Source: Corynebacterium vitaeruminis DSM 20294 (lineage in GTDB: Bacteria > Actinomycetota > Actinomycetes > Mycobacteriales > Mycobacteriaceae). From it: a stretch of DNA of 64,000 bases. Positions 2,670 through 63,238 of this stretch are shown in pieces (positions within the stretch are counted from its first letter, which is position 1; every line of letters begins with the position of its first letter). The notes under the pieces are model-generated. The model made no database searches, had not been told where the DNA came from, and saw only the letters and a list, made by a program, of their open reading frames with translations. Both the position numbers and the translations under genes were made by a program. The DNA lies in contig NZ_CP004353.1 in assembly GCF_000550805.1 (NCBI RefSeq), positions 1,674,001 through 1,738,000 on the forward strand, read 5' to 3'.

Positions 2670-3257
2670 TTAACACTGTCTTTTACGCACCATGTCCGCG
2701 GGCGAAGGTGAGGTTTTTCTCACTTCTGCGGCGCCTTCGGCGGTTTTCGCTTCTCGACGGCCAAGGTACGCACGCCGCTCGTCCAGCCACGACTGCAGGA
2801 TCTCCACGGCGGCGATCTGGTCGACCACCGCCCTGCCCTGGCGCTCGTTCTTTCCTGACATGTGCAGCGCCTGGTACGCGATGACTGTGCTCAGCCGCTC
2901 GTCGGCCATCCGGATCGGCAGGGGCTTCCCGGCTGCAGTCAGACGGCGATTGATACGGAAGGCGAAGTCTTTGGCGTGCTTGACGCTGCGCGAACCCGAG
3001 CCGTCAAGGTTGCGGGGCAGGCCGACCACGACCTCCACCGCCTCGTACTCCTCGATGATCTCGAGGATGCGGTCGATGTCCTCGCTGTCGCGATCCTTGA
3101 GCCCGGTCGTGCGCCGCACCGTCTCCACGGGGCTGGCGAAGGTCGCGTCGCGATCGGAGGAGGCGACGCCGATGCGAACGCTGCCCACGTCAATGCCGAT
3201 GCGACGCCCGCGGCCCGGGTCGTCCTCACCGGGGGTATCGGGGGTGACTTGTGCCAT
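2670..3257 (-). CDS. ruvX: Putative pre-16S rRNA nuclease / Holliday junction resolvase-like YqgF
   Basis: The 195-residue protein has an RNase H-like fold signature. [12 protein letters not shown] near residue 22 carries the first acidic residue, [11 protein letters not shown] the second (walker-like) strand, and DERLST the conserved DER motif. Known family roles are 16S rRNA 5' end maturation and possibly Holliday junction processing. About 40 residues of charged, low-complexity sequence follow the domain, longer than in E. coli YqgF. A variant of the window-wide motif (GCTTCTCGACGGC, 2749-2761) falls in this tail. It is followed directly by mltG and aroE and preceded by alaS, the usual actinobacterial order. 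Confidence 0.92.
2749..2761 (+). repeat. Variant copy of the GCTTRTCGACGSC motif
   Basis: It reads GCTTCTCGACGGC and continues CAAGG, so it matches the copies at 39952 and 46312 over 18 bases except for one base. It lies in the C-terminal coding end of ruvX, about 80 bases before the stop codon. Confidence 0.5.
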
Positions 3258-3320
3258 GTCCGGTAGCCTACCTGCCGCCGCCGAAATCCGGAAAACGGGC
3301 TGGTTGCCTAGGGGGCGGAA

Positions 3321-3353
3321 AAAGCGGGATGGGGCTTGTCCCCATCCCGCTTT
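3321..3353 (-). terminator. Rho-independent terminator of alaS
   Basis: A perfect 14-bp stem (AAAGCGGGATGGGG against its complement) with a 5-base loop lies 17 bases after the alaS stop codon. On the minus strand the stem is followed by T-rich sequence. Confidence 0.85.
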
Positions 3354-3370
3354 GTTTCCTCGAAGAGGGT

Positions 3371-6043
<2,673 letters not shown>

Positions 6044-6151: not shown

Positions 6152-7498
6152 TCAGCGCTTCCCGCGCACGATTCTGCGCAGCCGTCCGATGTAGTCGGCG
6201 ACGCGTTTTTCCGCACCGTGGTCGGTTGGTTGGTAGTACACGGCGTCGTCTAGGCCGTCCGGTATGTATTGCTGCGTGACGACGCCACGCGGGTCATCGT
6301 GCGGGTACACGTAGCCCACGGCGTTGCCGAGCTTCTTCGCGCCCTCGTAGTGGCCGTCGCGCAGGTGCGGCGGGACCGGCGGGGTCTTGCCGTGGCGCAC
6401 GTCGGCGATCGCGGAGTCGATGGCCGCGATGACCGAGTTCGACTTGGGCGCCGTGGCCAGATAGATGGCGGCTTCGGCCAGCGGGATGCGTGCCTCGGGC
6501 ATGCCGATGAGCTGCGCCGCCTGTGCGGCGGCGGTGGCCACCTGCAGGGCCTGGGGGTCGGCCATGCCGATGTCCTCGGCGGCGTGCACGATGAGCCTGC
6601 GGGCGATGAACCGCGGGTCCTCGCCGGCGTCGATCATCCGGGCGAGGTAGTGCAGGGTGGCGTCGACATCCGAGCCGCGGATCGACTTGATGAACGCGCT
6701 GGTGATGTCGTAGTGCTGGTCGCCGTCGCGGTCGTAGCGCACGACGGCCCGGTCGATGTTGGAGGTGATGACCTCCGTGGTAATCGCCGCGCCGTCGGGA
6801 AGCCCCTCGGCGACCGCCTCGAGGTAGGTCAGAGAGCGGCGCGCGTCACCGCCTGCGAGCTGCACGAGCTGCTCGAGCGCATCGTCGTCAATGGTGACCC
6901 GGCCGCCGAGGCCGCGGTTGTCCTCGATCGCGCGCAGGAGCACCTTTTTGATGTCGGCTGGCTCGAGGGCCTGCAGGTGCAGGATGAGCGAGCGCGACAG
7001 CAGCGGCGCCACCACGGAGAAGGAGGGGTTCTCGGTCGTCGCCGCGACCAGCAGCACAGTGCGGTTTTCCACCGCCGCGAGCAGCGCGTCCTGCTGGGTC
7101 TTGCTGAAGCGGTGCACCTCGTCGATGAACAACACGGTGCGCCGACCGTGGATCAGGTCCCTGCGGGCGGCGTCGATGACGGCGCGGACCTCCTTGACCC
7201 CGGAGTTCAGCGCGGACAGCCCCACGAAGCGGTGGCCGGTCGCCGAGCTGATGAGCGAGGCGATGGTGGTCTTGCCCGTGCCGGGCGGGCCGTAGAGGAT
7301 CACGCTCGCCTCGCCGGAACCCTCGATGAGCCGGCGCAGCGGCTTGCCCGGACCGAGCAGGTGCTCCTGGCCCACGATCTCGTCGAGGGTGCGCGGGCGC
7401 ATGCGGGCGGCCAGCGGCGAGTGGGCGCCCGATTCGAAGACCGGCGAGGAATCGGGCTGCGCCCCAGGAACCTCAAAGAGCCCACCGGCGTCGTCCAT
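6152..7498 (-). CDS. rarA: Replication-associated recombination protein A (AAA+ ATPase)
   Basis: The 448-residue protein belongs to the clamp-loader-like MgsA/RarA/WRNIP1 family that acts at stalled replication forks. The Walker A motif is GPPGTGKTT around residue 66, Walker B is LFIDEVHRF, sensor 1 is ATTENPSF and an arginine-rich LLSRSLI follows. The C-terminal tetramerisation domain includes [15 protein letters not shown] and the [13 protein letters not shown] segment. The N-terminus has the short acidic region typical of the family. ATG 7498 is preceded by a GGAAAGGGGG site. The longer upstream frame overlaps the neighbouring terminator and is not coding. Confidence 0.95.
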
Positions 7499-7569: not shown

Positions 7570-8898
7570 TTATGCCTCGTCGGAAAGCAAATCCATGACG
7601 GAGGCGGCGAAGCTGGCCACGGCCGGGAACCGCGGGTCGGCGCCGCGTTGGGCGAAGCGTTGCATCGCCTCGAAGGTCTCGCGCAGATCCTGGCGGATCA
7701 TGTCCGCCTCCTCCGAGATCTCCTCCGGGTTCTTCACCAGGACCTGATCCGCGATCGGGGCCAGCTTGTCCACGATGGTGGCGAGGTCGAGGTGCTCGAT
7801 GACCACGTTGCCGCGGAACAGCTCCGCGGACAGCTCGCCCTGGGCGCTCAGGTGCATCATCGACAGGCTGGTCAGCGCCCAGCCGACCATCGCGGTGACG
7901 ATGCGCGCGGACAGGCGGGTGGAGTTGTTCACGTTCGGCCAGATCTTGCCCACCTCGTGCACCCACGACTCGATGAACACGTCAGCCTCGTCGTCGGTGA
8001 TCGGCTGGCTGAACAGGAACTGCGGGAAGCCGGCGATGACGCAGGCGACGTCGAAGGTGGCGTCCCTGAAGCCCGCCCACTCGTAGTCGAGGAAGTGCGT
8101 GCGATCGGAGACGATGATGTTGTCCGGCGACAGGTCGAAGGGAGTAAACGCGCGGTGCTGGCCGCTCATGAGGCGGCGCCCGGCGTCCTCGGCGAAGTCG
8201 CGCACCGTCTGGCTGATCTGGATGCCCGCGCGCGAGAGCAGCTCGAGCCCCACGGTCATCGACGCCATGAGCAGGCGCTCGCGGTAGCCGAACAGCGCCT
8301 GGACGTCCGGGTACTTGGCGAACATGCGCTTGAGCAGAATCTGGAAATCCTGCTCCTTGCTGGCCGTGTCGGCGTGCATCTTGCCGATCGCTTCGCCGAG
8401 GTTGCGCAGAATGGACACGCGCAGCTGCTCGTCGTGGGTGTCGAGCAGGTCCGCGAAGGTATCACCGTCGCCGGAGTCGCTCAGGATGATGAGCCGTTGA
8501 TCGACGTCGTAGGCGAGCAGCACCGGGCCCGGGCGCACCTCCTCGCTCAGCGAGGTGGTGAACTGGTAGGCGACGATCTCGCGCAGCAAGGTCGACTTGT
8601 CGTAGAGCAGGTCGGTGACCGGCATGTACTTGATCACCACGGAGCGCTGCTGCAGGAACGGCGACGGCGCCACGCGCGCCCGCAGGACAACAGCGATGCC
8701 CGAGCCCCCGAGATCCTTGATCTCGCTGAGCTTTTGGTTTCCGCCATAGCGCTGGCTGAGAAGCTTTTCAGCCGTATCGACGACCATGGCCACCAGCTCC
8801 TCGTCGGAGGAGGCTGCCAGCTTGGTGTCGTCGAAAGGCATTCCCGCCTGCGGGATCTGCGCCGGTTCGGAACCGTTTGCGGACTTGTTGGGGCTCAC
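7570..8898 (-). CDS. Phosphotransferase (APH/choline kinase-like fold) protein of unknown substrate
   Basis: This 442-residue protein shows the aminoglycoside phosphotransferase/choline kinase fold. An N-lobe VVIKYMP supplies the ATP-binding lysine. The Brenner-like catalytic loop [13 protein letters not shown] has the catalytic Asp and the following Asn but lacks the usual preceding His. [10 protein letters not shown] corresponds to the metal-binding D-E/W element. GTG 8898 is chosen because AAGGAG lies seven bases upstream; the frame further upstream has no ribosome-binding site. Homologues sit between aspS and rarA in corynebacteria as far as I know. The substrate cannot be read from the sequence, and a resistance function is not implied. 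Confidence 0.7.
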
Positions 8899-12698: not shown

Positions 12699-15563
12699 CT
12701 ACGTGCTAACTGCCTCCCCCGGCGTTTCCTCGACGGAAACCGGCGCCGCCGCGTCTAGGCCTAGGCGCTCGCGCTCCTGCGCGATGATCTGTTGCGCCAG
12801 CTTCGCCTCCGAGACGTCGATGGCGTCCGGGATGGCGGCGGTGTCAGACTCGCGGGCGAAGGAGTCGAAGGCCTTGCGCTTGTGCTCGAGCACCTCGAGC
12901 AGTCGCTCGTCGACGGTCTCGTCGCCGACGATGCGGTGGACCTGCACCACCTGGGTTTGCCCCATGCGGTGCGCGCGGGCGATGGCCTGGTCCTCGATGG
13001 TGGGCTTGACCTGCACCTCGGCGAGGATGACCACGGAGGCCTTCTGGATGTTGAGCCCCACACCACCTGCGCCGATCTGCGCCAGGAGGATGTTGCCGCT
13101 GCGGCCGAGCTCGTCGACGAGCTGCTGGCGCCTGACCGGCGCCACATCGCCGCTGATGACGCCCACGCACCGCGCGCCGAACTCCTCCTCCAGGCGCGAG
13201 AGCACCTTGCGGAAGTAGCTGAACACTAGCACGTTGCGCTTGTCCGCGGTGGCCTCGGCGACCAGCTCCTTGATGCGCTCCACCTTGGCCGAGGAGGGGC
13301 TCGGCGAGAGCATCGCCGCCTGGCGCGCCTTCATCCAATTGCCCTCGGCGATCGCCTGGGAGTAGGCGGCCTGGTCGGCCTCGCTGAGGTCGACCCAGTC
13401 GATGGTCTCGACCTTCTCCGGCAGTTCGTCGAGGACGTCGACCTGGTTGCGCCGCAGGTAGAAGGGGGCGACCTTCTTTCGGAACGCGGACGGGGTGCCG
13501 GCGTTGTCGGGGTCGACGAGCTTCGGCTGGAGGTAGTTGACGAGGTTGGCGAACTCCGCCACGCGGTTCTCCATCGGTGTGCCGGTCATGAGCACGGCAA
13601 ACTGTGCCTCCCGCAGCAGCTTGGCGGCGGCCTGCGAGCGCTGGGCCGCGGGGTTTTTAATCATGTGCGCCTCGTCGACGATCACGAGCGTGGCGGGCGG
13701 CAGCGGCTGAGAGCGAATGCCCTCATAGGTCATGATGAGCACCCCACCGCGGGCGTTCCACACCTCCGCGATGCCCTCCTTGGCCTCACCGTGGCCGATG
13801 AGCACCTCGAGGTCGCTGAAGTTGGCCAGCTCGCGGCGCCAGTTGACGATGAGGCTGGCCGGAACCACGACGAGCACGCGGGCGGTCTCCGGCAGCGCCG
13901 TGTAGAACTCCGGCGGCGAGGCCTGCCAGCCAGGGCGCCCGGAATCCGAGTCGGGCTCCGCGCCACCCTGGGGTTCGGCGCCCTGGTCGTCGGCAAGCGA
14001 GCTGCGAAGGGCGGAAAGGTGCGTGGCGAACTCGCGCGCGGTGTACTCGCTCGACAGGTGCGCGGCGGCGGCGATCGCCTGGACCGTCTTGCCCAGGCCC
14101 ATCTCGTCGCCGAGGATCACCTTGTTCTGCACGAGGCAGAACTTCGCGCCGAAGGACTGGTATCCGCGCAGGTAGAGGTCCTTCAGGTGCTCCTGGTTGA
14201 GGTGGAGCGAGCGGATCGCGGCGATGGTCTCCTCCGACAGGCCGTCGAGCGAGGTTCCCACGGCGACGTCGGAGTCGAGCAGCGCGTTGAGCAGCGACTG
14301 GTAGTGCGCGGGCCGGGAAAGGTAGTCCTCCCATACGGGTACTGCGGGCGGGACGACGGGCCCGGGCAGGAAGGAACTCGGCGCGGCGTTGGCCCAAGAG
14401 ATGTCCTCGATGAACTGGTCGTAAAAGGTCTCCCCCGTCTTGGCCAGCACGAACGGCTGCCCGTAGGCGGCGAGCGTCTCGGGGAAGCTGCGGAAGTAGC
14501 CGACCAACCGGTCGCGGCGGGCGGCCTGCTCCTCGCTGAGGGTGTTCGACTGCTCGAAGGCGTTGAGCACCTCGACCAGCGCCACAGCTGGAGCGAGCCT
14601 CTCGTCGCCGATGTTCTTGTCCTTGGCGATGCTGGCCTCGGTGAGCAGGGTCTGGGCCGCGGCCTTCATGCGCTTGGCGGTCTGCGCGCCGATGCCGGGC
14701 ACCTGGGTGAGGACCACCTCGGGGCGGTCGATGACGTCGGCGACGGTGCGGATGCCGTGGTCAGCAAGCCCCTTGAAGCGCAGCCGCTCGTTGGTGACCT
14801 CCTTGAGCGCTTCCACGTCGAGCCCCTCGAGCATGCGCCTGGCGCGCAGGGCGGACAGGGCCGCCAGCTGGGCGCGCGCGGCCTTCTCGAGGTTCTCCGG
14901 CGAGTGCGGGTCGTTCTCGATTCCGGCCACGACCTCCCGGGTCGGCACCACGTACTTGCGGTCGAGGGAGTCGATGACGCTGCCTGGCATCTGGAGGGCG
15001 TCGAGCAGCTCCCCGCGCGCGGCCGCCATGTAGGGCTCGGGGCAGCCGTGTGCGCCGGGGCTGAGGTACACGCCCTGCCTCTGGATCGCCACGGCGCGGT
15101 CGGCGCGCGCGAGCAGGTCGGCGACGGTCACCTCGAGCTCCTTTAGCTGCGGCCCCTCGAGGATGCCTTGGAGCTCCTCGGCCGCCTGGGTGGCCATCTG
15201 CATGCTCGGGCCCGAGCCGAAGCTCATGCCGATGCGCGTGAACAGGCCCGCGTCGGCGCGCTTGGCGAGGTCGAGCAGCCCGGGGATCGGCTTGGTGAGC
15301 TGGGAAAACTGCTCGAGCACCGCGAGCGTGCCCTCGGTGTCGCCGGAGAACTCCGCGCGCAGGAACAGCCCGCTCGGCCAGGAGATGAGGCCGGAGTCCA
15401 TGAGCACGAAGCGGTCGGCGGCCTCCCCCAGCTCCGCGGCGGGCCCCACCCGCACGCTCGCGGGCTCCTCGCGCAGGATTCCGGCGAGCGACGCGGCCCT
15501 CGCCCTCGCGTCGACCAGGCGTGCGGCGTGGTCGCGCACCGCGCCAAGCGTCATCTTGTCCAT
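12699..15563 (-). CDS. SNF2-family DEAD/DEAH-box helicase
   Basis: This protein of about 954 residues has a long N-terminal region that includes a helix-hairpin-helix-like VPGIGAQTAKRMK segment about a third of the way along. The SNF2 ATPase core follows: DEMGLGKT (Walker A), VVPASLIVNW, DEAHMIKN (Walker B) and LMTGTPMEN. The helicase C-terminal domain has VFSYFRK, GAGGVGLNIQKAS and RAHRMGQTQVVQVHR. Such proteins translocate on double-stranded DNA; the exact role here is unknown. The start is uncertain between GTG 15581, ATG 15572 and ATG 15563, because a single GGAG lies near all three. The C-terminal tail is short and acidic. Confidence 0.88.
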   Translation of the reverse strand: MDKMTLGAVRDHAARLVDARARAASLAGILREEPASVRVGPAAELGEAADRFVLMDSGLISWPSGLFLRAEFSGDTEGTLAVLEQFSQLTKPIPGLLDLAKRADAGLFTRIGMSFGSGPSMQMATQAAEELQGILEGPQLKELEVTVADLLARADRAVAIQRQGVYLSPGAHGCPEPYMAAARGELLDALQMPGSVIDSLDRKYVVPTREVVAGIENDPHSPENLEKAARAQLAALSALRARRMLEGLDVEALKEVTNERLRFKGLADHGIRTVADVIDRPEVVLTQVPGIGAQTAKRMKAAAQTLLTEASIAKDKNIGDERLAPAVALVEVLNAFEQSNTLSEEQAARRDRLVGYFRSFPETLAAYGQPFVLAKTGETFYDQFIEDISWANAAPSSFLPGPVVPPAVPVWEDYLSRPAHYQSLLNALLDSDVAVGTSLDGLSEETIAAIRSLHLNQEHLKDLYLRGYQSFGAKFCLVQNKVILGDEMGLGKTVQAIAAAAHLSSEYTAREFATHLSALRSSLADDQGAEPQGGAEPDSDSGRPGWQASPPEFYTALPETARVLVVVPASLIVNWRRELANFSDLEVLIGHGEAKEGIAEVWNARGGVLIMTYEGIRSQPLPPATLVIVDEAHMIKNPAAQRSQAAAKLLREAQFAVLMTGTPMENRVAEFANLVNYLQPKLVDPDNAGTPSAFRKKVAPFYLRRNQVDVLDELPEKVETIDWVDLSEADQAAYSQAIAEGNWMKARQAAMLSPSPSSAKVERIKELVAEATADKRNVLVFSYFRKVLSRLEEEFGARCVGVISGDVAPVRRQQLVDELGRSGNILLAQIGAGGVGLNIQKASVVILAEVQVKPTIEDQAIARAHRMGQTQVVQVHRIVGDETVDERLLEVLEHKRKAFDSFARESDTAAIPDAIDVSEAKLAQQIIAQERERLGLDAAAPVSVEETPGEAVST

Positions 15564-15621: not shown

Positions 15622-15634
15622 GCTTGTCGACGCC
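15622..15634 (+). repeat. Copy of the GCTTRTCGACGSC motif
   Basis: Exact match (GCTTGTCGACGCC) in the 109-base gap between the YhgE stop and the helicase start. It lies between two GGGCCC blocks that could pair, placing it in a loop. Confidence 0.6.
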
Positions 15635-20257: not shown

Positions 20258-21013
20258 ATGAGCGCCACCGACAGCGACCGCCTCCGCGCGACCACGTTCC
20301 TTGCCCACTTCAACGAGATCGAGCTCGTCCTCAAGAAGCACGCCCGCGCCGACAACCGCGACAGCTTCACGTGGATGGTCCGCCAGGCGCTCAAGGACGG
20401 ACTGCTCACTGGCAACCAGGCCGATGCGCTTGTCGAGTTCTCGCAGCTGCGCAACGCGATCGCGCACGGCAGGTATTCCAAGGAGCTCCTGCCCATCGCC
20501 ATCCCGCTCCCAGAGACCGTGGAGCACATCGGGCGGATCCGCAGCTCGCTCACCTCCCCCAAGCGCGCCCTCGACTTCTGCCTCGAGGAGCAGCAGCGCC
20601 CGCCCATCACGTTCGAGCCCGGCACCAGGTTGCAGGAGCTTTTCGACGCCCATGGCAGCGACCACATCGCCAAGTTCCCGATCTACACCCCCGAGCACGT
20701 CTTCTCCGCCCTGCTGACCGCCAGCAACCTGTTCACCTGGGTGGCCGCCCGCGGCGCGAACCCCGCCGTGACCGCGGGCGAGATCATCGCCCACGCCCCG
20801 CAGCTCGGCATGGAGGTGCGCCGCTGCCACTTCCTCCCGAAGACCGCCTCCATTCAGAAGGCGCTTACGCTGCTGTCCACCCCCACGCCGGGCAACCGGC
20901 TGCCCCAAGCGCTCATCATCTCCGAGGCGGGGTTGGAGGCGCAGAAGCCGCTGGGGATCATCTCCGGCTCGGACGCCCAGGGTCTGCTGCGCTACATCGA
21001 GCACCCGATTTAG
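20258..21013 (+). CDS. HEPN-like plus tandem CBS domain protein, function unknown
   Basis: I do not recognise a named family for this 251-residue protein. The N-terminal 90 residues are all-helical and contain QLRNAIAHGRY, an R-x4-H motif of HEPN domains, often ribonucleolytic or RNA/nucleotide-binding. The C-terminal 150 residues resemble a CBS pair (Bateman module): FPIYTPEHVFSALLTASNLFTWVA in the first repeat and PLGIISGSDAQGLLRYI in the second. CBS pairs bind adenine nucleotides, so a nucleotide-sensing HEPN protein is a reasonable inference. A strong GGAGGTC ribosome-binding site precedes ATG 20258. Confidence 0.6.
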   Translation: MSATDSDRLRATTFLAHFNEIELVLKKHARADNRDSFTWMVRQALKDGLLTGNQADALVEFSQLRNAIAHGRYSKELLPIAIPLPETVEHIGRIRSSLTSPKRALDFCLEEQQRPPITFEPGTRLQELFDAHGSDHIAKFPIYTPEHVFSALLTASNLFTWVAARGANPAVTAGEIIAHAPQLGMEVRRCHFLPKTASIQKALTLLSTPTPGNRLPQALIISEAGLEAQKPLGIISGSDAQGLLRYIEHPI

Positions 21014-24508: not shown

Positions 24509-24554
24509 GAGTTCTTCCTTCTTGGTTGTTTCTCGCGTTGACAGTCTAGGCTTT

Positions 24555-24567
24555 AGCGTCGACAAGC
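24555..24567 (-). repeat. Near copy of the GCTTRTCGACGSC motif
   Basis: On the minus strand it reads GCTTGTCGACGCT, one mismatch at the last base. It lies between tpx and the hydrolase gene, ten bases beyond the tpx terminator. Confidence 0.5.
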
Positions 24568-39951: not shown

Positions 39952-39964
39952 GCCGTCGACAAGC
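39952..39964 (-). repeat. Copy of the GCTTRTCGACGSC motif
   Basis: Exact match (GCTTGTCGACGGC, continuing CAAGG), 12 bases after the thioesterase stop codon. Confidence 0.6.
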
Positions 39965-46239: not shown

Positions 46240-46311
46240 TTTTCCTCGAAAGAGTCGCTTCTCGTCACAAGTCATCATCGCATTCATCTGATCCGCGGGC
46301 CGGTAGCCTTG

Positions 46312-46324
46312 GCCGTCGACAAGC
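46312..46324 (-). repeat. Copy of the GCTTRTCGACGSC motif
   Basis: Exact match (GCTTGTCGACGGC, continuing CAAGG), 18 bases beyond the thrS stem-loop. Confidence 0.6.
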
Positions 46325-46341
46325 GAAGGCACCTAGCAAGC

Positions 46342-46379
46342 GGGGCGGGAAGAAACGCGATGCGCACTCTTCCCGCCCC
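46342..46379 (-). terminator. Stem-loop after thrS
   Basis: A perfect 12-bp stem (GGGGCGGGAAGA) with a 14-base loop lies 18 bases after the thrS stop. The following T content is low. Confidence 0.7.
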
Positions 46380-46396
46380 GCCGCGCGCCATCATGA

Positions 46397-50683: not shown

Positions 50684-51268
50684 TTAGGACTTCTTCCGGC
50701 GCAACAGGGCCACGACGGCGGCGAGGACGATCACGATCGCGGCGCCAAGTCCCCACAACAGACCCGAGTTGCTCGAATCATTGGAGGCCTGCTGCGCGTC
50801 GCTCGACGAGGTCGCGGTAGCGCTTTCGCTTTCGCTTGTCGACGACGTACCGCTTGCGGCCTCGCTCCCCGAGCCGGACACCGTGAAGGAGATCTTGCCC
50901 CTCGTGGCGTGTCCATCGGAGGAGGTGATCTGGAACCCGACGTTGTACGAGCCATCGCCCGGGTGGACGTCAGCTGGCACGGCGAGCGTCAGCTCGTTTC
51001 CGTTGAGCGTGGGCTCGCCGGAGAACAGCACGGTTCCGCCCTGGTCGGTCACGGCCATGGTGTTGAACCCCGCCTTGGGCTCGGCGGAGAAGTCGAGCGT
51101 GATCGCCTGGGGGAACTCCGACAGGGTCTGACCGTCGGTCGGGGTACCGCCAACAACGGCATCATGAGCGCTGGCAACCGGCACCGTGGCAACGCCAGCG
51201 AGGCCGAAGAATCCGGAGAGAGCTATCAAGCCGGTGGCGACCCTGCGGGCGCCGGTGCGATGCTTCAT
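50684..51268 (-). CDS. CopC-domain copper-binding protein, membrane-anchored
   Basis: The 194-residue protein has a signal peptide ending SAHD, so the mature protein starts with His, the first copper ligand of CopC. It has the immunoglobulin-like CopC domain (ITLDFSAEPKAGF; VGFQITSSDGHATRG with the second conserved His), a Ser/Thr-rich linker and a C-terminal membrane helix followed by RRKKS. This layout matches YobA/YcnJ-type proteins. GAGG precedes ATG 51268. It heads the copper gene pair. Confidence 0.9.
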   Translation of the reverse strand: MKHRTGARRVATGLIALSGFFGLAGVATVPVASAHDAVVGGTPTDGQTLSEFPQAITLDFSAEPKAGFNTMAVTDQGGTVLFSGEPTLNGNELTLAVPADVHPGDGSYNVGFQITSSDGHATRGKISFTVSGSGSEAASGTSSTSESESATATSSSDAQQASNDSSNSGLLWGLGAAIVIVLAAVVALLRRKKS

Positions 51269-51642
51269 CTATTTCCTCTTCAGTAGTTACTGCCGTGCCA
51301 GCGTCCCTTTAAGCCAAGAACGCATCTCATCCTGCATTGAGATCAACAATGAAATCCAATATTGAATAAAACCCTTGTTTCAGGGTCACACACTAGTCGC
51401 ACGGGGCTTGGGGAAAGTTCCTCTGCCGTCTCGATCCTACCCCCTCTGCTTAACCCCCTAAGTATTGACCTGCATCTCAACCTTTTGGATAGCCCACCCT
51501 TAGTAAACGCCCAGCTCACCGCTTCCGACCTCGGCTGAATCCACTTAGTTTGGCCATCCTTTGTAGGCTCCTGGCGGACGTTGCGCGGGAACCTGTGGCC
51601 GTCGATAAGCGGTACCCCCGCGGGTATAGCAAACCGCAACGA
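51269..51642. other. 374-bp intergenic region upstream of copC
   Basis: No gene is supported. It is A+T-richer near 51310-51480 than its surroundings and must hold the copC promoter. It has an ATCTCA-N8-TGAGAT inverted repeat (51325-51344) about 60 bases before copC, a possible operator. The motif copy at 51598 lies near the amidohydrolase stop. I find no DtxR-type box. Confidence 0.55.
51598..51610 (-). repeat. Copy of the GCTTRTCGACGSC motif
   Basis: Exact match (GCTTATCGACGGC), 32 bases after the amidohydrolase stop codon. Confidence 0.6.
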
Positions 51643-54125: not shown

Positions 54126-54854
54126 ATGAACTCTGACATTTCCGACGCGACGGTCGCGAGCATCCTTGGCCCCGAACATCCCGTGGGCACCCCCGAGGTC
54201 CGGATGATCTTCGTGTCCTCCATCAACGGCGAGGCGGCAGTCGCGGGCACGTCGGAGGCGCTGGGCAACGCGACTGATTTTCAGGTCTTGCTCGGTGCGC
54301 GGGCGTGGGCCGACGTCGTGATGGTGGGGGCTGGCACGGTTCGCGCGGAAAACTACGGTGGGGTAAGGCTCGACGAAGCCACGCAGCGTGCCCGGCGCGC
54401 CCGCGGGCAGGCGCCCGTCCCGCCGCTGGCCGTGGTGGGGCGCACGCTGGACTTCGCGTCGGATTCCCGGGTCGTGGCCGACTACCACGTGCCCCCGCTC
54501 TTCCTGCGGCTGCCCGGCGGGCCTGCGCCCGCCCCCGCTTTAGCGTCGGAAAGCATCATCGAACTAGATAGCCTCACCGCCAGCGAGTGCCTGGCGCGGC
54601 TTCGCGAGGCGGGGTTCGCGCGGATCCTGTGCGAGGGCGGGCCGACGCTGTATTCGAAGCTCATGGCGGAGGACTGCGTCGACGTCGTGCATTGGACGCT
54701 TGACCCCTCCTTCGTCTATCCCCAGCGGGTCCCGGTCTTCCCTATGGCTGACCGCGAGGAAGGCACGGCCCCGCTGCGGCACCGGTTCGAGCTGAGGTCT
54801 GCGACGCCGTGCGAGGATGGGGTGCTTTTCCTCCGTTACGATCGCTTGCGCTAG
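54126..54854 (+). CDS. RibD C-terminal-domain reductase (pyrimidine reductase-like)
   Basis: The 242-residue protein is a dihydrofolate reductase-like fold of the RibD C-terminal family: MIFVSSINGEAA, VMVGAGTVRAENYGG, VVGRTLDF and ILCEGGPTLYSKLMAE. It lacks the deaminase domain of riboflavin RibD. The counterpart next to aftC in Mtb (Rv2671) has been discussed as an alternative dihydrofolate-type reductase. ATG 54126 is chosen because AGG lies eleven bases upstream and it begins just before the fold; an ATG at 54081 is possible. Confidence 0.85.
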   Translation: MNSDISDATVASILGPEHPVGTPEVRMIFVSSINGEAAVAGTSEALGNATDFQVLLGARAWADVVMVGAGTVRAENYGGVRLDEATQRARRARGQAPVPPLAVVGRTLDFASDSRVVADYHVPPLFLRLPGGPAPAPALASESIIELDSLTASECLARLREAGFARILCEGGPTLYSKLMAEDCVDVVHWTLDPSFVYPQRVPVFPMADREEGTAPLRHRFELRSATPCEDGVLFLRYDRLR

Positions 54855-54942: not shown

Positions 54943-56211
54943 GTGACCGCCCCACTGAAAGAACGTCTCGAAACCGCCTTCCTCGCCCCCGACGCCGAGC
55001 GGCTCCTCGGCGCCCGGAGCGCCTTCGCGCCGCTTGCATCCTCGCCGCAGGCAAACCGGATCGGCAACGCGCTGCTGTGGCCGCTGGCGGTGATCATGGT
55101 CATCCACCGCGTGTTCTTCCTCGCGATCAATGGCTCTGTAACCGACGACTTCAGTACGGTGTTCTTCGCGCTCAAGCGCTTCCGCGACGGCGCGCCGGTG
55201 TACAGCGAGAACTATCAGTTCGTGGATCCGCACTACCTCTATAATCCGGGCGCGACGCTGTTGCTCTCGCCCATGGGGCTGCTCGACCACTTCTTCCTCA
55301 GCCGCACGCTGTTTATCTGCGGCAACGCCGCGGCCATCATCCTCGCGCTGGCGCTTCTGACGCGCATGTTCGGCGCGAGCCTGAAGTCGATGGCGTTTCC
55401 GCTGGCGATCACCGGGGCGTTTCTCACGGAGGCGGTCAAGAACACCCTCGTGTTCGCCAACATCAACGGCGTGCTCCTGCTGGTGTTCGTGGGCTTCCTG
55501 TGGGCGCTCCTTTCCGGTCGCAATGTGCTCGCAGGCGTGCTCATCGGCCTGGCGATCCTGGTCAAGCCCCTTTTTATCCCGCTCCTGTTCCTGCCGCTCG
55601 TGCGGATGCAGTGGTCGACGCTCATCACCGGCGTCGCGGTCCCGGCGGTATTTAACCTTGCGGGGTGGTTCTTCGTGCCGGGCGCCAGCGACTACTGGAC
55701 CGTGACCACGCCGTACCTGAAGGAGGTACGCGACTACTCCAACAGCAGCCTGCCGGGCATCATGGCCTACTTCGGCGCGCCGGGGTGGCTCCAGAACGTC
55801 CTGTTCGTGGTCTTCGCCCTCGCCGTCGCCGCGGGCGTGATCCTGCTCCTGCGCGTCCGCAGGGCGGATCCCCTGGCGTGGGCGTGCGCGACCGCGGGGC
55901 TGTTGCTCGCGGGCGTGTTCTTCCTGTCCTCGCTGGGGCAGATGTACTACTCCATGATGCTGTTCCCGCTGGTCTTCGCCTGCATCCGCGTGCCGTCGCT
56001 CGGCGCCAACCCGATGGTGTGGCTCGGATTCATCCTCTGCCTCTTCCCCGCCAAGTGGGACTCGGACCGCTGGCGCGACTACGGCCGCTGGCTGAACTTC
56101 TTCGAGTCCACCGCAGGCTGGGCCATATTAATTCTTGCCCTTTCAACCACGGCGGTCGCTTGGTACTACCTTGGGAGGAAGGCTCCGCGCACGTCGCTTT
56201 CCGACGCCTAA
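54943..56211 (+). CDS. aftC: Arabinofuranosyltransferase AftC (GT-C membrane enzyme)
   Basis: The 422-residue protein has about ten membrane helices. VTDDFSTVFFALKRFRDG in the first extracytoplasmic loop carries the DD motif for decaprenyl-phosphate-arabinose. It adds the alpha-1,3 branch in arabinogalactan and lipoarabinomannan. The order RibD-like, aftC, msrB, hemQ matches Mtb Rv2671-Rv2676c, which supports the name over generic GT87. I chose GTG 54943; the frame reaches further upstream but has no good site. The overlap with the preceding gene in the longer version is unlikely. Confidence 0.87.
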   Translation: MTAPLKERLETAFLAPDAERLLGARSAFAPLASSPQANRIGNALLWPLAVIMVIHRVFFLAINGSVTDDFSTVFFALKRFRDGAPVYSENYQFVDPHYLYNPGATLLLSPMGLLDHFFLSRTLFICGNAAAIILALALLTRMFGASLKSMAFPLAITGAFLTEAVKNTLVFANINGVLLLVFVGFLWALLSGRNVLAGVLIGLAILVKPLFIPLLFLPLVRMQWSTLITGVAVPAVFNLAGWFFVPGASDYWTVTTPYLKEVRDYSNSSLPGIMAYFGAPGWLQNVLFVVFALAVAAGVILLLRVRRADPLAWACATAGLLLAGVFFLSSLGQMYYSMMLFPLVFACIRVPSLGANPMVWLGFILCLFPAKWDSDRWRDYGRWLNFFESTAGWAILILALSTTAVAWYYLGRKAPRTSLSDA

Positions 56212-56763: not shown

Positions 56764-57465
56764 TTAGGGCAGGACGTCGATAAGCGGGGCGATCTCGACG
56801 CGCTTGCCGGAGAAGAACGGGATCTCCTCGCGCACGTGCAGGCGGGCCTCCGTGTAGCGCATCTTGTGCATGAGGTCGACGGTGCGGTGCAGCTCGGGCG
56901 CCTCGAAGGCGAGGATCCACTCGTAGTCACCGAGCGCGAAAGCGGGAACGGTGTTCGCGCGCACGTCCGGGAAGTCGCGGGCGGCCTGGCCGTGCTCGGA
57001 GAGGATGCGGCGGCGCTTCTGCGGGTCCATGATGTACCAGTCGTAGGAGCGGACGAACGGGTAGACCGTCACCCACTGGCCGGCGTCCTCGTCCATGATG
57101 AAGCTCGGGAGGTGGGACTTGTTGAACTCGCTCGGGCGGTGCAGCGCGTTGCCGATCCAGGCGACCTCGACGAGCTGGCCCAGGGTGGTCTCGCGGCGGA
57201 AGGCGGCGAACGCCTTCTGGATGTCCTCGAACTCCTCGGCGTGCCACCAGATCATGAAGTCGGCGTCCGCGCGGAAGCCGGCAAGGTCGTAGATGCCGCG
57301 GACGGTGACCACGCCCTCCTCAGCCAGCTTCTCGAAGAACTCCTGGGCCTGAGCCTTGATCTCGGCCCGCTCGGTGCCGATCGCACCCGGGATAGCCCGG
57401 AACACAGCCCACTGCGTGTAACGCTGCATGCTGTTGAGTTCCTCGAAGTTGAGCTTTTCTGCCAT
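56764..57465 (-). CDS. hemQ: Coproheme decarboxylase (HemQ/ChdC)
   Basis: The 233-residue chlorite dismutase-family protein performs the last step of the coproporphyrin-dependent heme pathway. It has the long N-terminal helix, DLAGFRADADFMIWW, the YPFVRSYDWY segment whose Tyr acts as radical site, and MRYTEARLHVREEIPFFSG with the conserved heme-ligand His region. AAAGGA precedes ATG 57465. hemY and hemE, neighbours in Mtb, are not here. The near-motif GCTTATCGACGTC lies 10-22 bases before the stop. Confidence 0.96.
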   Translation of the reverse strand: MAEKLNFEELNSMQRYTQWAVFRAIPGAIGTERAEIKAQAQEFFEKLAEEGVVTVRGIYDLAGFRADADFMIWWHAEEFEDIQKAFAAFRRETTLGQLVEVAWIGNALHRPSEFNKSHLPSFIMDEDAGQWVTVYPFVRSYDWYIMDPQKRRRILSEHGQAARDFPDVRANTVPAFALGDYEWILAFEAPELHRTVDLMHKMRYTEARLHVREEIPFFSGKRVEIAPLIDVLP

Positions 57466-57804
57466 GTGAATGTCCTTTCCACCCACTCGAACGTCCAAGA
57501 AGTGGCCTCGTGCTTGCCGACGGGCCACGCGCCCACACCGGGCGCGATAGGCGGGCTGCTCCCGCCTTTCGGGTTTCCTACCCTCCTGCGCCCTGTGGCG
57601 TTTCTCGGGGCTCCGATCAACTACTTGGGCGAGGTGCGATATACACCATTAGTTGGATAGCAACAGTAGGATATCCTACCCCACCTTGTACCCGACTGGG
57701 CCCCGCGACCGCGCCGCCAGCCCCCGTTCGGCCCGTCGAGACGCCGAAAGAATCTTCGGCGCGCCTAACTCCAAATGTCGGGACCGCATAGTTAGCTAGT
57801 CTTT
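57466..57804. other. 339-bp divergent region between hemQ and the DUF3000 gene
   Basis: No gene is supported. It contains a 14-bp perfect palindrome (57666-57679) in a locally A+T-richer stretch, and a weak relative of the 13-bp motif (GCTTGCCGACGGG, 57513-57525). Confidence 0.6.
57666..57679. promoter_or_regulatory. Palindrome GTAGGATATCCTAC, candidate operator
   Basis: The 14 bases are fully self-complementary, about 200 bases from hemQ and 125 from the DUF3000 gene start. No known regulator consensus that I recall matches it. Confidence 0.45.
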
Positions 57805-58469: not shown

Positions 58470-59669
58470 ATGTCTTTCATCGCTCGTCGCCCCGCCGAGG
58501 GCACCCCTGCCCTCCTGCACACCGGCGAGGAGGTCGCCCGCGCCGCCGGCGCTCTGGGCGCCGGACATGGACCCATCGCCATCGACGTCGAACGCGCCGG
58601 TGCGTACCTCTTTCGCGACGAGGCCTGCCTCATCCAGCTGCGCCGAGAGGGGGCAGGATCCTTCCTCCTCGACCCCCTGCGCGCGGGCCAGGCGATCGAG
58701 AACGAGCTCGCGCCCGTGCTCAACGACGCGGAGTGGATCCTGCACTCCGCCACCTCGGACCTGCCCAGCCTCTTCGACCTAGGCCTGCGCCCCGCCGCGT
58801 TATTCGACACGGAGCTGGCCGGGCGGTTCGGCGGGTTCGAGAGGGTCAACCTCGCAGCCTTGGTCGACGAGTTCTGCGACGTCACGCTGCTGAAGCAGCA
58901 CGGCAACGAGAACTGGTCGGTGCGCCCGCTGCCGCAGTCTTGGCTCAACTACGCGGCCCTCGACGTCGAATACCTCATCCCGCTCGCCGACGGCCTGCGC
59001 GAGGACCTCGACGCCAGCGACAAGCTCGACTGGTTCTACGACGAATGCGACTACATCGTCGATCGCTACCGCCACGGCGACCCGCACCCGACCAAGCAGT
59101 GGAGCGACACGAAGGGGATCTCGAGGCTGAAAAAGCGCAAGAGCCTCCAGATCGCGAGGCTTTTGTGGCAGCGCCGCTTCGACATCGCGCGCGACCGCAA
59201 CATCGCGGTCTCCCGGGTGCTTAAGGACAAGACTCTCGTCGCCATCGCCGAGCAGGCTCCTCGCAGCTACCAGCAGCTCAAGCGGGTCCCCTTCTACAGC
59301 GAGCAGGTCCGCCAGCACGCAAGCGTCTGGCTGGACGTCGTGCGCGACGTAGAGCAGCAAGACCCCGCGGGCTTCCCGAGCCGCGCAGAGCTGCGCCCGG
59401 CAGAGGAGCTTCCCGACGTCAGGGCGCTAAAAAACCAGTACCCCGACACCTGGGAGTCGATGCAGGACGCCCGCGACATGGTCTACGACCTAGGCCGCGA
59501 GCTGGAGATTCCCGCGGAGAACATTCTCAAGCCAGCGATCTTAAAGACCACCATCTGGGAGGCGCGCGACGGCGGGGTGGACATCGCCCGCGCGCTCACT
59601 AGGCGCGGCGCACGGCGCTGGCAGGTGGAGCTGACGGCACCGATCATCGCCGAGGCGCTCGGCTTCTAG
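58470..59669 (+). CDS. rnd: RNase D-family 3'-5' exoribonuclease
   Basis: The 399-residue protein has the DEDD exonuclease core: IAIDVERAG (first D and E), LHSATSDLPSLF (second D) and NYAALDVEYL (Y-x3-D). An HRDC domain follows, with AVSRVLKDKTLVAIAEQAP. It trims 3' ends of tRNA and other stable RNAs. ATG 58470 is chosen at the start of homology; the much longer frame upstream is the shadow of DUF3000. It converges with dxs. Confidence 0.92.
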   Translation: MSFIARRPAEGTPALLHTGEEVARAAGALGAGHGPIAIDVERAGAYLFRDEACLIQLRREGAGSFLLDPLRAGQAIENELAPVLNDAEWILHSATSDLPSLFDLGLRPAALFDTELAGRFGGFERVNLAALVDEFCDVTLLKQHGNENWSVRPLPQSWLNYAALDVEYLIPLADGLREDLDASDKLDWFYDECDYIVDRYRHGDPHPTKQWSDTKGISRLKKRKSLQIARLLWQRRFDIARDRNIAVSRVLKDKTLVAIAEQAPRSYQQLKRVPFYSEQVRQHASVWLDVVRDVEQQDPAGFPSRAELRPAEELPDVRALKNQYPDTWESMQDARDMVYDLGRELEIPAENILKPAILKTTIWEARDGGVDIARALTRRGARRWQVELTAPIIAEALGF

Positions 59670-59704
59670 GCCGAGGGTGGCTTTCTCTCCCGGCTCCTCG
59701 TCGC

Positions 59705-61684
59705 TTACTGTGCGGGCACCTCGTCTGGGGTGTCCGCGGTGTCCTCGGTGTCATCTATGTCCGCGGGGTCCTCGCTGAGGGATTCCTCGCCGAAGAGCTC
59801 CTGGGCCCAGCCGCGGATCGACTCCGCGATGCCTGCCTCGTCGAGCCCGACCTCGGCCATGAGCTCCCCGCGGCTCGCGTGCAGCGGGAACAGCTCGGGG
59901 AAGGCGATGTTGCGCACGGGGGTGTCCACGCCCGCGGCGTTGAGCGCCTCGTTGAGCATCGAGCCGACGCCGCCGTGGATGACGCCGTCCTCGACGGTGA
60001 CCACGAGGTCGTGGTCGTCCGCCATCGCGACGAGGCTCGGCGCGATCGGAACCACCCAGCGGGGATCGACGACGGTGACATCGAGGCCGTCGTTGACGAG
60101 CCCCTCCGCGACCGCCACGGCTGGCTGGGCCATCGCCCCGCAGGCGACGACGAGCACCGAGGGAGCATCGTCGCTCAGGGTCTCCTCGTCCTGGTAGAAC
60201 AGGATATCCACGCCGTCGGCGAGGCGCTCCTTTTCCTCGATGACCGCGGGCAGGTTGCCCTTGGGGAAGCGAACGATGGTCGGCGACTCGATCTCCAGCG
60301 CCTCCCGGAACTGCTCGACCAGCTGCTCGCCGTCGCGGGGCGCGGCGACCCTGATGCCCGGGATGATCCCGGCCAAGGACATGTCCCACACGCCGTTGTG
60401 GCTAGCTCCGTCGGAACCGGTGACGCCGGCGCGGTCGAGCACGATGGTGACCGGAAGCCCAAGGAGCGAGACGTCCATGAGCAGCTGGTCAAAGGCACGA
60501 TTCAGGAAGGTCGAGTAGATAGCGACCACGGGGTGCAGGCCGCCGAGCGCGAGGCCCGCCGCCGAGGTGAGCGCGTGCTGCTCCGCGATGCCGACGTCGA
60601 AGAAGCGTTCCGGGTAGGCCTTGCCGAAGGCCGAGAGCCCGGTGGGCCCAGCCATGGCCGCCGTGATGGCGACGATGTCGCTGCGCTCCCCGCCGACCGC
60701 GACGAGCTCCTTGGAAAACACCGAGGTCCAGCCGGGGCTCTTCGTCCCCACGGGCTCTCCGGTCTTCGGGTTGATGACGCCGGTGGAGTGCATGAGCTCG
60801 GCGACGTCGTTCTCCGCCGGGGCGTAGCCGCGGCCCTTCTCGGTGACGGCGTGGACGATGATCGGGCCGTTGTAGTCGCGGGCGTAGCGCAGCGCGGCCT
60901 CAATCGCCTTGAGGTTGTGCCCGTTGACGGGGCCCACATACTTCATGCCCAGCTCGGGGAACATCTCCGTGGGGATGACGGTGGACTTGACCCCCTCCTT
61001 GAAGGCGTGCAGCGCCTCGAAGGTGCGCTCGCCCACCCAACCCATGGACTTCAGCGTCGTCTTGCCGTGCTCCATGACGCGGTCATAGAAGGGCTGCATG
61101 CGCAGGTCGGCAAGGTTGTCGGCGAAGCCGCCGATGGTCGGGGAATAGCTGCGCCCGTTGTCGTTGACGATGATGACCACGTTGCGGTCCTTGCCCGCGG
61201 CGATGTTGTTGAGTGCCTCCCAGCACATGCCTCCTGTCAACGCCCCGTCGCCGACGATGACCACGGCCTGGCGGTCGGTCTCCCCCTTGATCTGGAAGGC
61301 CTTGGCGAGCCCGTCGGCGTAGCTCAGCGCTGCCGAGGCGTGCGAGGACTCGGTCCAGTCGTGCTCGCTCTCCGCGCGGCAGGTGTAGCCGGACAGGCCG
61401 CCCTTCTGGCGCAGGTTGTCAAAGTCCTCCGAGCGGCCGGTGAGGATCTTGTGCACGTAAGACTGGTGCGAGGTATCGAAGATGATGGGATCCTTGGGCG
61501 AATCGAACACCCGGTGCACGGCCAGCGTCAGCTCGACGACGCCGAGGTTCGGGCCCAAGTGCCCGCCCGTGGCCGAGACCTTCTCCACAAGAAAGTGCCG
61601 GATCTCCCCTGCCAGCTCCTCGAGCTCATCCGCCGAGAGTGCTTTCACGTCCGCGGGGGACTTGATGCGATTCAAAATACTCAT
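59705..61684 (-). CDS. dxs: 1-deoxy-D-xylulose-5-phosphate synthase
   Basis: The 659-residue thiamine-diphosphate enzyme condenses pyruvate and glyceraldehyde 3-phosphate, the first step of the MEP isoprenoid pathway. It has [27 protein letters not shown], the TPP motif [17 protein letters not shown] and the transketolase-like [15 protein letters not shown]. The C-terminus adds about 30 mostly Asp/Glu residues not found in E. coli Dxs. ATG 61684 begins the homology; the ribosome-binding site is not clear. Confidence 0.96.
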
Positions 61685-61978
61685 GCTGGAAGCTCGAGCA
61701 TCCTTTCCTGTTGGGACCACGGTGTATGGGCTGCTTGGGCCCTACCGGCAGGACGAGCGCGAAGCCGCCTACCCGGTCTCGCGGCACCACGTTATGCGCG
61801 GGCCGCCCTTCAAGGCCGGGGTCTTTGCAGCCCCACGGCCTCGTAGCTGCGAAAACTCATTTCGCTTTTAGCGTTGTCTACCCATATTACTAGGGCGGTT
61901 CATTGTTTAATGCATCGCGCGCGAAAAGGCGGCGAAAAGATGTTCGCCCACTTTCGTCGCGCGCCGCGCTCTGTGCTC
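61685..61978. other. 294-bp region between the methyltransferase and dxs genes
   Basis: No gene is supported. It should hold the dxs promoter; the most A+T-rich part is 61855-61915. Confidence 0.5.
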
Positions 61979-63238
61979 TTAGGACTGGGCGGGGCGAAAC
62001 AGCCCCACGGCCTCCATGTGGTGCGTGCCGGGGAAGGCGTTGAACAGCGCGAGCCTCTCAAGCTCGTATCCACGTTCGGTCCAGGTGCGCGCGTCCCTCG
62101 CGAAGGTCGCCGGATCGCATCCGATGTGGATGACCGCCTGGGGACCGCTGGCGGCGACCGCCTCGATCACGGCGGCGCCAGCCCCGACACGAGGCGGGTC
62201 GAGCACTACGACGTCCGCCTCGGGTAGCTGGTCGAGCGCGCCCTCCACGGTCGATGAGTGGAATACGACGCGGTCGGCGAGCCCGCCGGCTGCCGCGGCG
62301 GAGAAGGCCTTTCGTCCCGCCTTCGCAGCCTGCGGCGAGGTCTCCACGGAATGGACCAGCGAACCGGTGCCGAGGCCTTCAAGGATGGCCGGGGCGAACG
62401 CACCCACACCGCCGTAGAGGTCCCAGCCCACCGCGTGGTCTCCTCGCCGGGGGCTGATCTCAGCCTGGGAAATCCACTCGGCGATCAGCCGCGAATACGC
62501 CTCCGGGGCTTTTATGTGCGCCTGCCAGAAGGAGGCGGCGGGCAGCTCGAAGCGCACGCCGCCGACGGTCTGGGCGGCGAGGCCGCTTCCCTCGACGACC
62601 TTGGTCACCTTCTCGTTGCGGCGGCCACGCGGCGCGCGACGCACCTCGACCACGTGCCGGGCGCCTTCGTCGTCGCGCACGACCACGACCTCGCTGCCCG
62701 GGGTGAACTCCCGCGCGCCCTCGCCGACGATACCGTCGAGAAGCCCGTCGACGGCCTGCGTGCACGCGCGGTCCGTGACGATCTCGTTCGATTCCGACTT
62801 GCGCGTTCCGGCGTGCCCTTGCTTATCGACGCCAAGGCGAACGCGGGTGCGCCACCCCGAAGAAGGCTCAAGGTCGATGGCCTCGATCTCGGGGAAAGCC
62901 TCCAGACGGCTTAGGCGGCGGAGCTGGTCCTCCAGGATCGAACGCTTGAGCTCCAGCTCGCGGGCCGGATCGACGATGCCGAAGTCGCAGCAGCCTCCCC
63001 CCGCGGCCGCCGCGGGGCAACGCTCTGCCACGCGCATGGGCGACGGCGTGTCGATGCGCAGCGCCCTGCCGCGGGCGAAGCTCTTCTTCGACTCGGTGAT
63101 CTCGGCGACCAGGTCGTCGCCGGGCAGTCCGCCGCGCACGAAGACTACCTTGCCGTCGTCGAGGGCGATTCCCTCGCCCCCGTGCGCGATCCTCTCGATG
63201 TGGAGCGCGACCTGCTGGCCCTTTTGCACTGCTGGCAC
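61979..63238 (-). CDS. TrmA/RlmD-like class I SAM-dependent RNA methyltransferase
   Basis: The 419-residue protein has an N-terminal TRAM domain (IERIAHGGEGIA), a cysteine cluster CPAAAAGGGCCDFG that fits the [4Fe-4S] site of RlmD-like enzymes, and the methyltransferase core: WDLYGGVGAFAP (SAM motif I), VVLDPPRVGAG (motif IV) and IGCDPATFARD with the catalytic Cys. It probably makes 5-methyluridine in rRNA or tRNA. GTG 63238 overlaps the upstream stop (TAGTG). An exact copy of the 13-bp motif (62821-62833) lies inside the gene, in the codons for LGVDKQG. Confidence 0.9.
   Translation of the reverse strand: MPAVQKGQQVALHIERIAHGGEGIALDDGKVVFVRGGLPGDDLVAEITESKKSFARGRALRIDTPSPMRVAERCPAAAAGGGCCDFGIVDPARELELKRSILEDQLRRLSRLEAFPEIEAIDLEPSSGWRTRVRLGVDKQGHAGTRKSESNEIVTDRACTQAVDGLLDGIVGEGAREFTPGSEVVVVRDDEGARHVVEVRRAPRGRRNEKVTKVVEGSGLAAQTVGGVRFELPAASFWQAHIKAPEAYSRLIAEWISQAEISPRRGDHAVGWDLYGGVGAFAPAILEGLGTGSLVHSVETSPQAAKAGRKAFSAAAAGGLADRVVFHSSTVEGALDQLPEADVVVLDPPRVGAGAAVIEAVAASGPQAVIHIGCDPATFARDARTWTERGYELERLALFNAFPGTHHMEAVGLFRPAQS
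62821..62833 (+). repeat. Intragenic copy of the GCTTRTCGACGSC motif
   Basis: Exact match (GCTTATCGACGCC), part of a 24-base stretch (62816-62839) identical to 41076-41099. It is the only exact copy well inside a gene. Confidence 0.55.

Follow-up and report, generated by a model that had tools for sequence, protein, structure and literature searches.

The 13-bp motif GCTTRTCGACGSC recurs throughout the chromosome of Corynebacterium vitaeruminis DSM 20294, and was followed up here from a stretch of 64,000 nucleotides (positions 1,674,001 to 1,738,000 of contig NZ_CP004353.1, hereafter the window). The motif is a real, genus-wide and evolving DNA signal, and we consider it rather probable that it represents this species' spelling of a DNA uptake sequence common to the genus, with the consensus GCTTNNCGAYG(SC). 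An earlier note on this DNA had proposed an uptake-like signal, a nucleoid-protein site or a small repeat family; the first of these proposals fits every sequence statistic tested and is retained as the putative function.

In the genome, a single contig of 2,931,780 bases, 430 exact copies of the motif were found (222 on the plus strand and 208 on the minus strand), whereas the reversed pattern used as control gave none. The number expected per genome ranges from 2.5 (order-3 Markov model) to 8.6 (order-5), as scaled up from a 464-kb sample that holds 86 exact copies. Relaxing the motif to the family GCTTNNCGAYG yielded 1,538 copies (764 and 774 by strand), with 115 for the reversed-pattern control. 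Within the window, 64 matches with at most two mismatches were counted, compared with 12.1 ± 4.0 in dinucleotide-preserving shuffles, none of 100 of which reached 64. The over-representation claimed in the earlier note was therefore borne out, and the coordinates and strands that it gave for eight exact copies in the window all proved correct; instead of its three one-mismatch copies, however, ten were counted (165, 2749, 4589, 20638, 21853, 24555, 24687, 46480, 50834, and 56773). The same note had named beforehand two results that would speak against the motif, a genome-wide count near the Markov expectation and a lack of enrichment outside coding sequence; both analyses were run, and neither result was obtained.

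Over-represented words in samples of other genomes, including a search of 80 kb in each of five genomes poor in the 13-mer, showed that GCTTRTCGACGSC is one spelling of GCTTNNCGAYG. When the family was compared with its reversed-pattern control in 121 Corynebacterium genomes, the excess was at least 5-fold in 92, 2- to 5-fold in 7 and less than 2-fold in 22. The 92 motif-rich genomes carry between 320 and 1,969 family copies (median 1,135; control median 82.5), with a strand imbalance of 8.4% at most. Outside the genus, all 100 genomes analyzed (11 of the same family and 89 of the same order) remained below 2.1-fold, the highest being G216 with 152 copies vs 74 for the control. The 13-mer itself was found in 52-353 copies in 24 of 36 other genomes of the genus and in 1-16 copies in the other 12, and all 24 genomes from other families had 0-14 copies, with controls of 0-15. 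At the level of single loci in named Corynebacterium genomes, 17 of 18 had between 0 and 14 family sites, including five with none.

The spelling of the family differs among lineages. In C. vitaeruminis, GT and AT together fill the central NN in 123 of 240 sampled sites, followed by TC, GC, TT, and CT; in one species pair (G093 and G123) GC is commonest, then GA, TA, and TC, and in another (G073 and G102) AT is commonest. The share of RT spellings within the family ranges from 0.01 to 0.54 across the 92 motif-rich genomes. Five genomes favour GCTTNNCGATG, that is, CGATG over CGACG: G006 and G118, both poor in the 13-mer, together with G077, G129, and G135, for which the evidence of this preference consists of small or partial lists and RT shares of 0.01-0.02. 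No clear over-represented motif was detected in 80 kb each of G030 and G063. In G027 (L187, L207), GCGTNNCGANG is frequent, with 25 copies in 34 kb alongside 30 GCTT sites, and is possibly a second spelling within one genome. The over-represented word of G014 was rejected as a motif, since it is a tandem repeat (L149:13799-14006) with units around AACGACGATCGCGACGA that is apparently coding and unconnected to the motif.

Motif-poor genomes occupy several positions in a midpoint-rooted FastTree phylogeny of 20 chosen genomes, a single tree in which two inner supports are near 0.16. They comprise a clade (G010, G015, G030, G033, and G090), G106 near C. vitaeruminis, and a low group (G065, G086, and G144); in addition, motif-poor G063 lies next to motif-rich G093, and motif-poor G014 next to motif-rich G006. 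Motif-rich genomes are found on either side of the root. The simplest reading of this distribution is that an ancestral motif would have been lost several times, the alternative being parallel gain.

Gene context was analyzed in the 464-kb sample, which corresponds to the window plus 20 further stretches (L111-L130) and covers 16% of the genome; with our own gene caller, 87% of it was called coding. The 20 stretches were picked after a partial site list had been viewed, which may have tilted the sample slightly towards sites. Family sites are mostly genic (156 of 240, 65%), and inside genes selection acts on DNA and not on protein. Thus, 81 of 97 genic sites on the strand of the gene are phased as G-CTT-NNC-GAY-G, another 59 lying on the opposite strand. 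CTT accounts for only 857 of 13,083 leucine codons (6.6%); in the context G-Leu-NNC-GAY-G it is used in 82 of 199 cases, and in Leu-NNC-GAY without both flanking Gs in 29 of 445, showing that this rare codon is used where it completes the motif.

Conservation of the sites was evaluated by aligning orthologous regions of two species pairs, 100 kb each. Identity of the core was 0.909, compared with 0.763 for NN and 0.799 for the flanks, from G073 to G102 (38 sites), and 0.935 vs 0.742 and 0.782 in the opposite direction (31 sites); the corresponding values were 0.992 vs 0.966 and 0.947 from G093 to G123 (58 sites) and 0.994 vs 0.974 and 0.950 from G123 to G093 (57 sites). In both pairs, orthologous copies differ mostly by substitutions within continuous flanks, and no motif inserted as a unit was seen among the alignments listed. 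Sites at gene ends are seldom kept: those found in C. vitaeruminis at the ends of apt, yajC, and a thioesterase gene were present in 0 of 20, 1 of 19, and 3 of 20 other genomes, respectively, and the highest sharing among 11 gene ends examined was 5 of 20. The density of the motif, not its places, is therefore maintained. The earlier note had proposed conservation in related Corynebacterium genomes as a check: the family occurs in most genomes and its core is better kept than its surroundings, but gene-end positions are rarely shared.

The earlier note had placed the motif at gene ends, which holds as an enrichment but not as a rule. Out of 86 exact sites in the sample, 85 were classified: 43 intergenic, 5 across a gene 3' end and 37 genic. 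The density of exact intergenic copies is highest between convergent genes (2.3 per kb, 9 copies), followed by tandem (0.76 per kb, 26 copies) and divergent spacers (0.45 per kb, 8 copies). Mapping against stop codons, also proposed in the note, revealed that exact copies in tandem spacers crowd behind the upstream stop, 20 of 26 lying nearer to it than to the downstream start (medians of 31 and 101 bp, Wilcoxon p = 0.004). With regard to the window, five exact copies are intergenic by the present gene calls (15622, 39952, 41081, 46312, and 51598), and not six; the copy at 35650 does lie in the last codons of yajC, as had been noted, that at 29879 is placed likewise in apt, and that at 62821 is again internal to a gene. 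The terminators reported beside the copies at 24555 and 46312 were not recovered there: consensus scans of 24,000-25,200 and 45,900-46,800 returned one terminator-like site each, at 24175 and 46582, neither adjoining these two copies.

Neighbouring family sites less than 80 bp apart are nearly always inverted (14 of 15 pairs, amounting to 28 of 240 sites), and five of these pairs lie inside genes. Strong hairpins are predicted for several inverted pairs; in some, the stem is preceded by a T run and followed by an A run, which is the reverse of the order in an intrinsic terminator. Close inverted pairs with long predicted hairpins include L113:14613-14688, L114:10-77, and L122:10788-10826, the last with an A run after the stem. 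A T run clearly precedes the motif at intergenic sites of C. vitaeruminis, but is not clear in 145 family sites of 20 other genomes. On the 3' side of the core, complementarity of the type GCC-TAC-GGC or GGC-TAC-GCC (GSC-loop-GSC) was observed in 82 of 117 sites, exceeding modestly a control of 200 flank swaps (mean 63, maximum 73); no conclusion is built on it.

A long gap in the motif marked a mobile stretch in this genome. Only one family site (768,877) was found in about 95 kb (692,697-787,932) between those at 692,696 and 787,933, whereas the genome average would predict approximately 50, and density is normal on both sides. Among the 20 proteins scanned there are capsid, portal, terminase, and tail proteins of phage type and a serine recombinase, as well as a TraG/TraD-like coupling protein, an M23/SLT enzyme and restriction-type proteins (GmrSD-like and ResIII-type), and we read the stretch as a putative conjugative element with a prophage. 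Since the gap opens with an ordinary UPF0182 gene, its ends need not coincide with those of the mobile part. Identity of the terminase to the 30 listed of 2,732 matching phage records is 74.5-79.4%; the hosts assigned to these records include Ruminococcus, Oscillospirales, and Streptococcus, indicating a cross-phylum relationship. Depletion of the motif in acquired DNA is documented by this one stretch (L223-L227, L117).

These properties resemble those of known uptake sequences, as described in the portions of the cited papers that were available. Haemophilus influenzae and Neisseria gonorrhoeae carry 1,471 and 1,965 copies, 65 and 35% of them in reading frames, with about 10% as inverted repeats, an excess in non-coding DNA and no orientation bias (PMC1939737); C. 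vitaeruminis is similar in its number of family copies, their genic share in the sample, the fraction in inverted pairs and the lack of polarity. In Neisseriaceae, whose uptake sequences are bound by the receptor ComP, a short word present in up to thousands of copies likewise diverges into lineage dialects around a common core, occurs both in and between genes, and forms inverted pairs tied to gene ends (PMC3630211). The atypical motif content of the mobile stretch also has a parallel, since conjugative elements have been detected through their atypical uptake-sequence content (PMC7371117). Nevertheless, there are differences. Compared with Neisseriaceae, the Corynebacterium motif is another sequence, in another phylum and another type of envelope, has two freely varying central bases, and is accompanied by a Tad/Flp-type locus (no search for ComP was made), its function being a prediction. 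The uptake sequences of Pasteurellaceae differ too in sequence, and their uptake bias was shown by experiment (PMC1939737), whereas that of the Corynebacterium motif is predicted; the reversed order of A/T runs at several inverted pairs is another difference from them.

The machinery for natural transformation is present across the genus. Among the 121 genomes, ComEC and DprA were detected in all, a prepilin peptidase (Peptidase_A24) in 120 (112 above the curated cut-off) and T2SSE/TadA in 118 (115 above cut-off). A tblastn search of tad and com loci in 20 genomes (8 motif-rich, 8 motif-poor and 4 between) matched ComEA, TadA, and a Flp-like protein in all 20, and ComEC in 19, that of G063 being found by Pfam. 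The tad locus of C. vitaeruminis, at about 312 kb, encodes TadA and two T2SSF proteins; we take its DUF4244 protein as the putative Flp and two small frames without Pfam match as pilin-like candidates. The Peptidase_A24 gene part cut by the window edge is a likely component of the Tad system, and not of the motif, although far from the tad locus. In another actinobacterium, Micrococcus luteus, transformation requires Flp pilus genes and ComEC, and the combination of tad genes with comEA/comEC also exists in Corynebacterium; the term 'uptake sequence' is absent from the main text of that study (PMC4322843). No candidate for a surface receptor specific for the motif was singled out in the 20 tad loci, where the TadE-like protein does not track the motif cleanly: it was matched in 14, and the six loci without it belong to five motif-poor genomes and motif-rich G101, none of which lies in the same half of the tree as C. 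vitaeruminis. ComEC frames appeared by eye to be often longer in motif-poor genomes, but the long frames occur mostly in one part of the tree, and ComEC length was dropped as a correlate of motif loss; no added domain was found by Pfam, save a weak DUF4131 match in 1 of 11 proteins scanned. All 11 (L183, L185, L187, L188, L190, L193, L195-L197, L200, and L201) have the Competence domain, and none gave a Pfam match (E up to 0.01) to the beta-lactamase-like domain common in ComECs. Overall, the machinery is compatible with the uptake reading without speaking in its favour.

If the motif is an uptake sequence, the Tad/Flp pilus-ComEA-ComEC machinery is its probable reader. In the course of natural transformation, the motif would be bound by a DNA receptor on the cell surface, most plausibly a minor pilin of the Tad/Flp pilus or ComEA; the pilus would draw the tagged DNA across the mycomembrane and the cell wall, and ComEA, ComEC, and DprA would carry it inside. 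Preferential uptake and recombination of tagged DNA would lead to accumulation of the motif by molecular drive, a changed receptor could change the spelling in a lineage, and loss of specificity or competence could result in loss of the motif. On balance, it seems slightly better than an even prospect that Corynebacterium, with its mycolic-acid outer membrane, evolved sequence-specific uptake independently, as an ancestral genus-wide 'mating tag' with species dialects and several losses, probably through a receptor borne by the Tad pilus.

Several points weigh against an uptake function. Every one of the sequence statistics could also be produced by diffuse selection on the sites of a nucleoid or repair protein. 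Motif-poor genomes possess the machinery as regularly as motif-rich ones, so that its co-occurrence with the motif gives no support. Control patterns for the conservation analysis were few and variable (2-9 sites per pattern, core identity 0.72-1.00), which makes this test weak when taken alone. Moreover, in the literature consulted, uptake sequences are described in two Gram-negative families only (PMC3630211, PMC1939737), and the requirement for them is presented as unique to Neisseria and Pasteurellaceae in the available part of PMC3630211. Among the open-access titles and abstract beginnings listed, there was no report of natural transformation in Corynebacterium, nor any description of an uptake or over-represented motif in the genus; a scan for spaced motifs that included Corynebacterium genomes reported CRISPR-derived pairs for them (PMC5217627, in the part available).

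The main rival explanation is a site for an intracellular chromosome-organising protein (a nucleoid-associated protein, a loader of SMC or a segregation or division factor) with many dispersed sites on both strands, which we regard as possible but unlikely. It would agree with sites that are dispersed, strand-balanced, both genic and intergenic, and sparsest per kb in divergent spacers, as well as with the near absence of the motif from acquired DNA and the conservation of its core by substitution. However, no obvious trend from origin to terminus was apparent in the 20-kb samples, as judged by eye, and lineage spellings together with loss in several separate branches would be unusual for an essential organiser. 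No chromosome-organising protein is known to us whose sites, defined by 8 fixed bases and one two-fold base, exceed 1,000 in number. Nor would such a role by itself explain why the numbers resemble those of uptake sequences.

A Chi-like signal for recombination or repair, read by a helicase-nuclease, appears improbable. Chi sites and KOPS (FtsK-orienting polar sequences) are, like the Corynebacterium motif, over-represented genomic words, and a Chi-like signal could also be nearly absent from acquired DNA. Nonetheless, Chi sites and KOPS are shorter and polar along the replichores, Chi being co-oriented with replication, whereas family sites in the samples are balanced in each chromosome half (60 plus and 60 minus on the left, 51 plus and 57 minus on the right, taking the origin near position 1 and omitting the mid-chromosome stretch L122, with 7 plus and 5 minus). 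Orientation thus does not follow replication, in agreement with the earlier note, which had argued against a KOPS-type polar signal, and such a signal was rejected. Crowding behind stop codons and inverted pairs would not be expected of a Chi-like signal either.

Slightly less credible still is an element acting on transcription at gene ends, such as a terminator, an attenuator or a regulator site. Although the density between convergent genes, the proximity to stop codons and the predicted hairpins of inverted pairs would suit it, most sampled family sites are genic, and exact copies in tandem spacers are found on both strands (11 on that of the genes and 15 opposite). The mix of strands, the reversed T and A runs, the scarcity of gene-end sites common to species, and the terminator scan led to the rejection of a terminator or promoter element.

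A mobile or copied repeat, whether REP/RAYT (repetitive extragenic palindromic sequences and their transposase), a miniature inverted-repeat transposable element or a transposase-bound end, is very hard to credit. The many copies, the intergenic enrichment and the GSC-loop-GSC complementarity recall such repeats, but flanks align through the sites in two species pairs, the conserved stretch spans only about 13-20 bp, genic sites are codon-phased and a Y1/RAYT transposase was matched in 5 of 121 genomes, with no match in the other 116, including C. vitaeruminis. Since copies change by substitution within alignable flanks and this transposase was unmatched in C. vitaeruminis and most of the other genomes, an inserted repeat was rejected, and the small repeat family suggested in the earlier note is not supported. 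Chance or compositional bias, for which only the GC-rich composition of the window (66%) could be invoked, is practically negligible and is refuted by the genome-wide counts and by the low ratios in the 100 genomes from other genera of the order. Sites in the window are listed in Table 1.

Table 1. Exact copies and family sites of the motif in the window, and a gene part at the window edge.
Feature	Position	Strand	Context
Peptidase_A24 gene part, cut by window edge	1..219	-	match at G000:C1:1673941-1674219
Family site GCTTCTCGACGGC	2749..2761	+	in ruvX (opposite strand), 79 nt from ruvX 3' end
Family site GCTTGCCGACGGC	4589..4601	-	genic
Family site GCTTCCCGACGGC	6791..6803	-	genic
Family site GCTTTCCGACGAG	7576..7588	-	final codons of gene 7570-8898
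Family site GCTTGCCGACGAC	13986..13998	-	genic
Exact copy GCTTGTCGACGCC	15622..15634	+	intergenic, tandem genes
Family site GCTTTTCGACGCC	20638..20650	+	genic
Family site GCTTGCCGACGCC	21853..21865	-	genic
Family site GCTTGTCGACGCT	24555..24567	-	intergenic
Family site GCTTGACGACGCC	24687..24699	+	65 nt from 3' end, gene 24622-25116
Exact copy GCTTATCGACGCC	29879..29891	+	final codons of apt (phosphoribosyltransferase domain), 45 nt from 3' end
Exact copy GCTTGTCGACGCC	35650..35662	+	final codons of yajC, 20 nt from 3' end
Exact copy GCTTGTCGACGGC	39952..39964	-	intergenic, 12 nt past 3' end of acyl-CoA thioesterase gene
Exact copy GCTTATCGACGCC	41081..41093	+	intergenic, divergent genes
Family site GCTTATCGACGAT	43052..43064	-	genic
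Exact copy GCTTGTCGACGGC	46312..46324	-	intergenic
Family site GCTTGTCGACGAC	50834..50846	+	genic
Exact copy GCTTATCGACGGC	51598..51610	-	intergenic, 32 nt from gene 3' end
Family site GCTTTCCGACGCT	54542..54554	-	genic
Family site GCTTTCCGACGCC	56196..56208	+	5 nt from gene 3' end
Family site GCTTATCGACGTC	56773..56785	-	11 nt from 3' end of chlorite-dismutase-like gene
Family site GCTTGCCGACGGG	57512..57524	+	called intergenic; start of neighbour gene uncertain, may include site
Family site GCTTCCCGACGTC	59408..59420	+	genic
Family site GCTTCTCGACGGT	62732..62744	-	genic
Exact copy GCTTATCGACGCC	62821..62833	+	within gene 61979-63229

Even without a role in uptake, a word of which the median motif-rich genome contains approximately 1,100 copies needs explaining. 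If the motif is an uptake sequence, it would be, by the literature consulted and in the parts of it that were available, the first such system outside Neisseriaceae and Pasteurellaceae, and would represent a third, unrelated origin of uptake tags, in an actinobacterial genus. The common trait of the three groups may be an outer membrane; Micrococcus luteus lacks a mycomembrane. The system would provide a test of whether uptake specificity is favoured by such a membrane, and would suggest that a pilus of the Tad type can possibly act as a sequence-specific DNA receptor. It could also offer a route to transforming harmless and industrial Corynebacterium species, and would imply that the genus is shaped, or was until recently, to a major extent by natural transformation.

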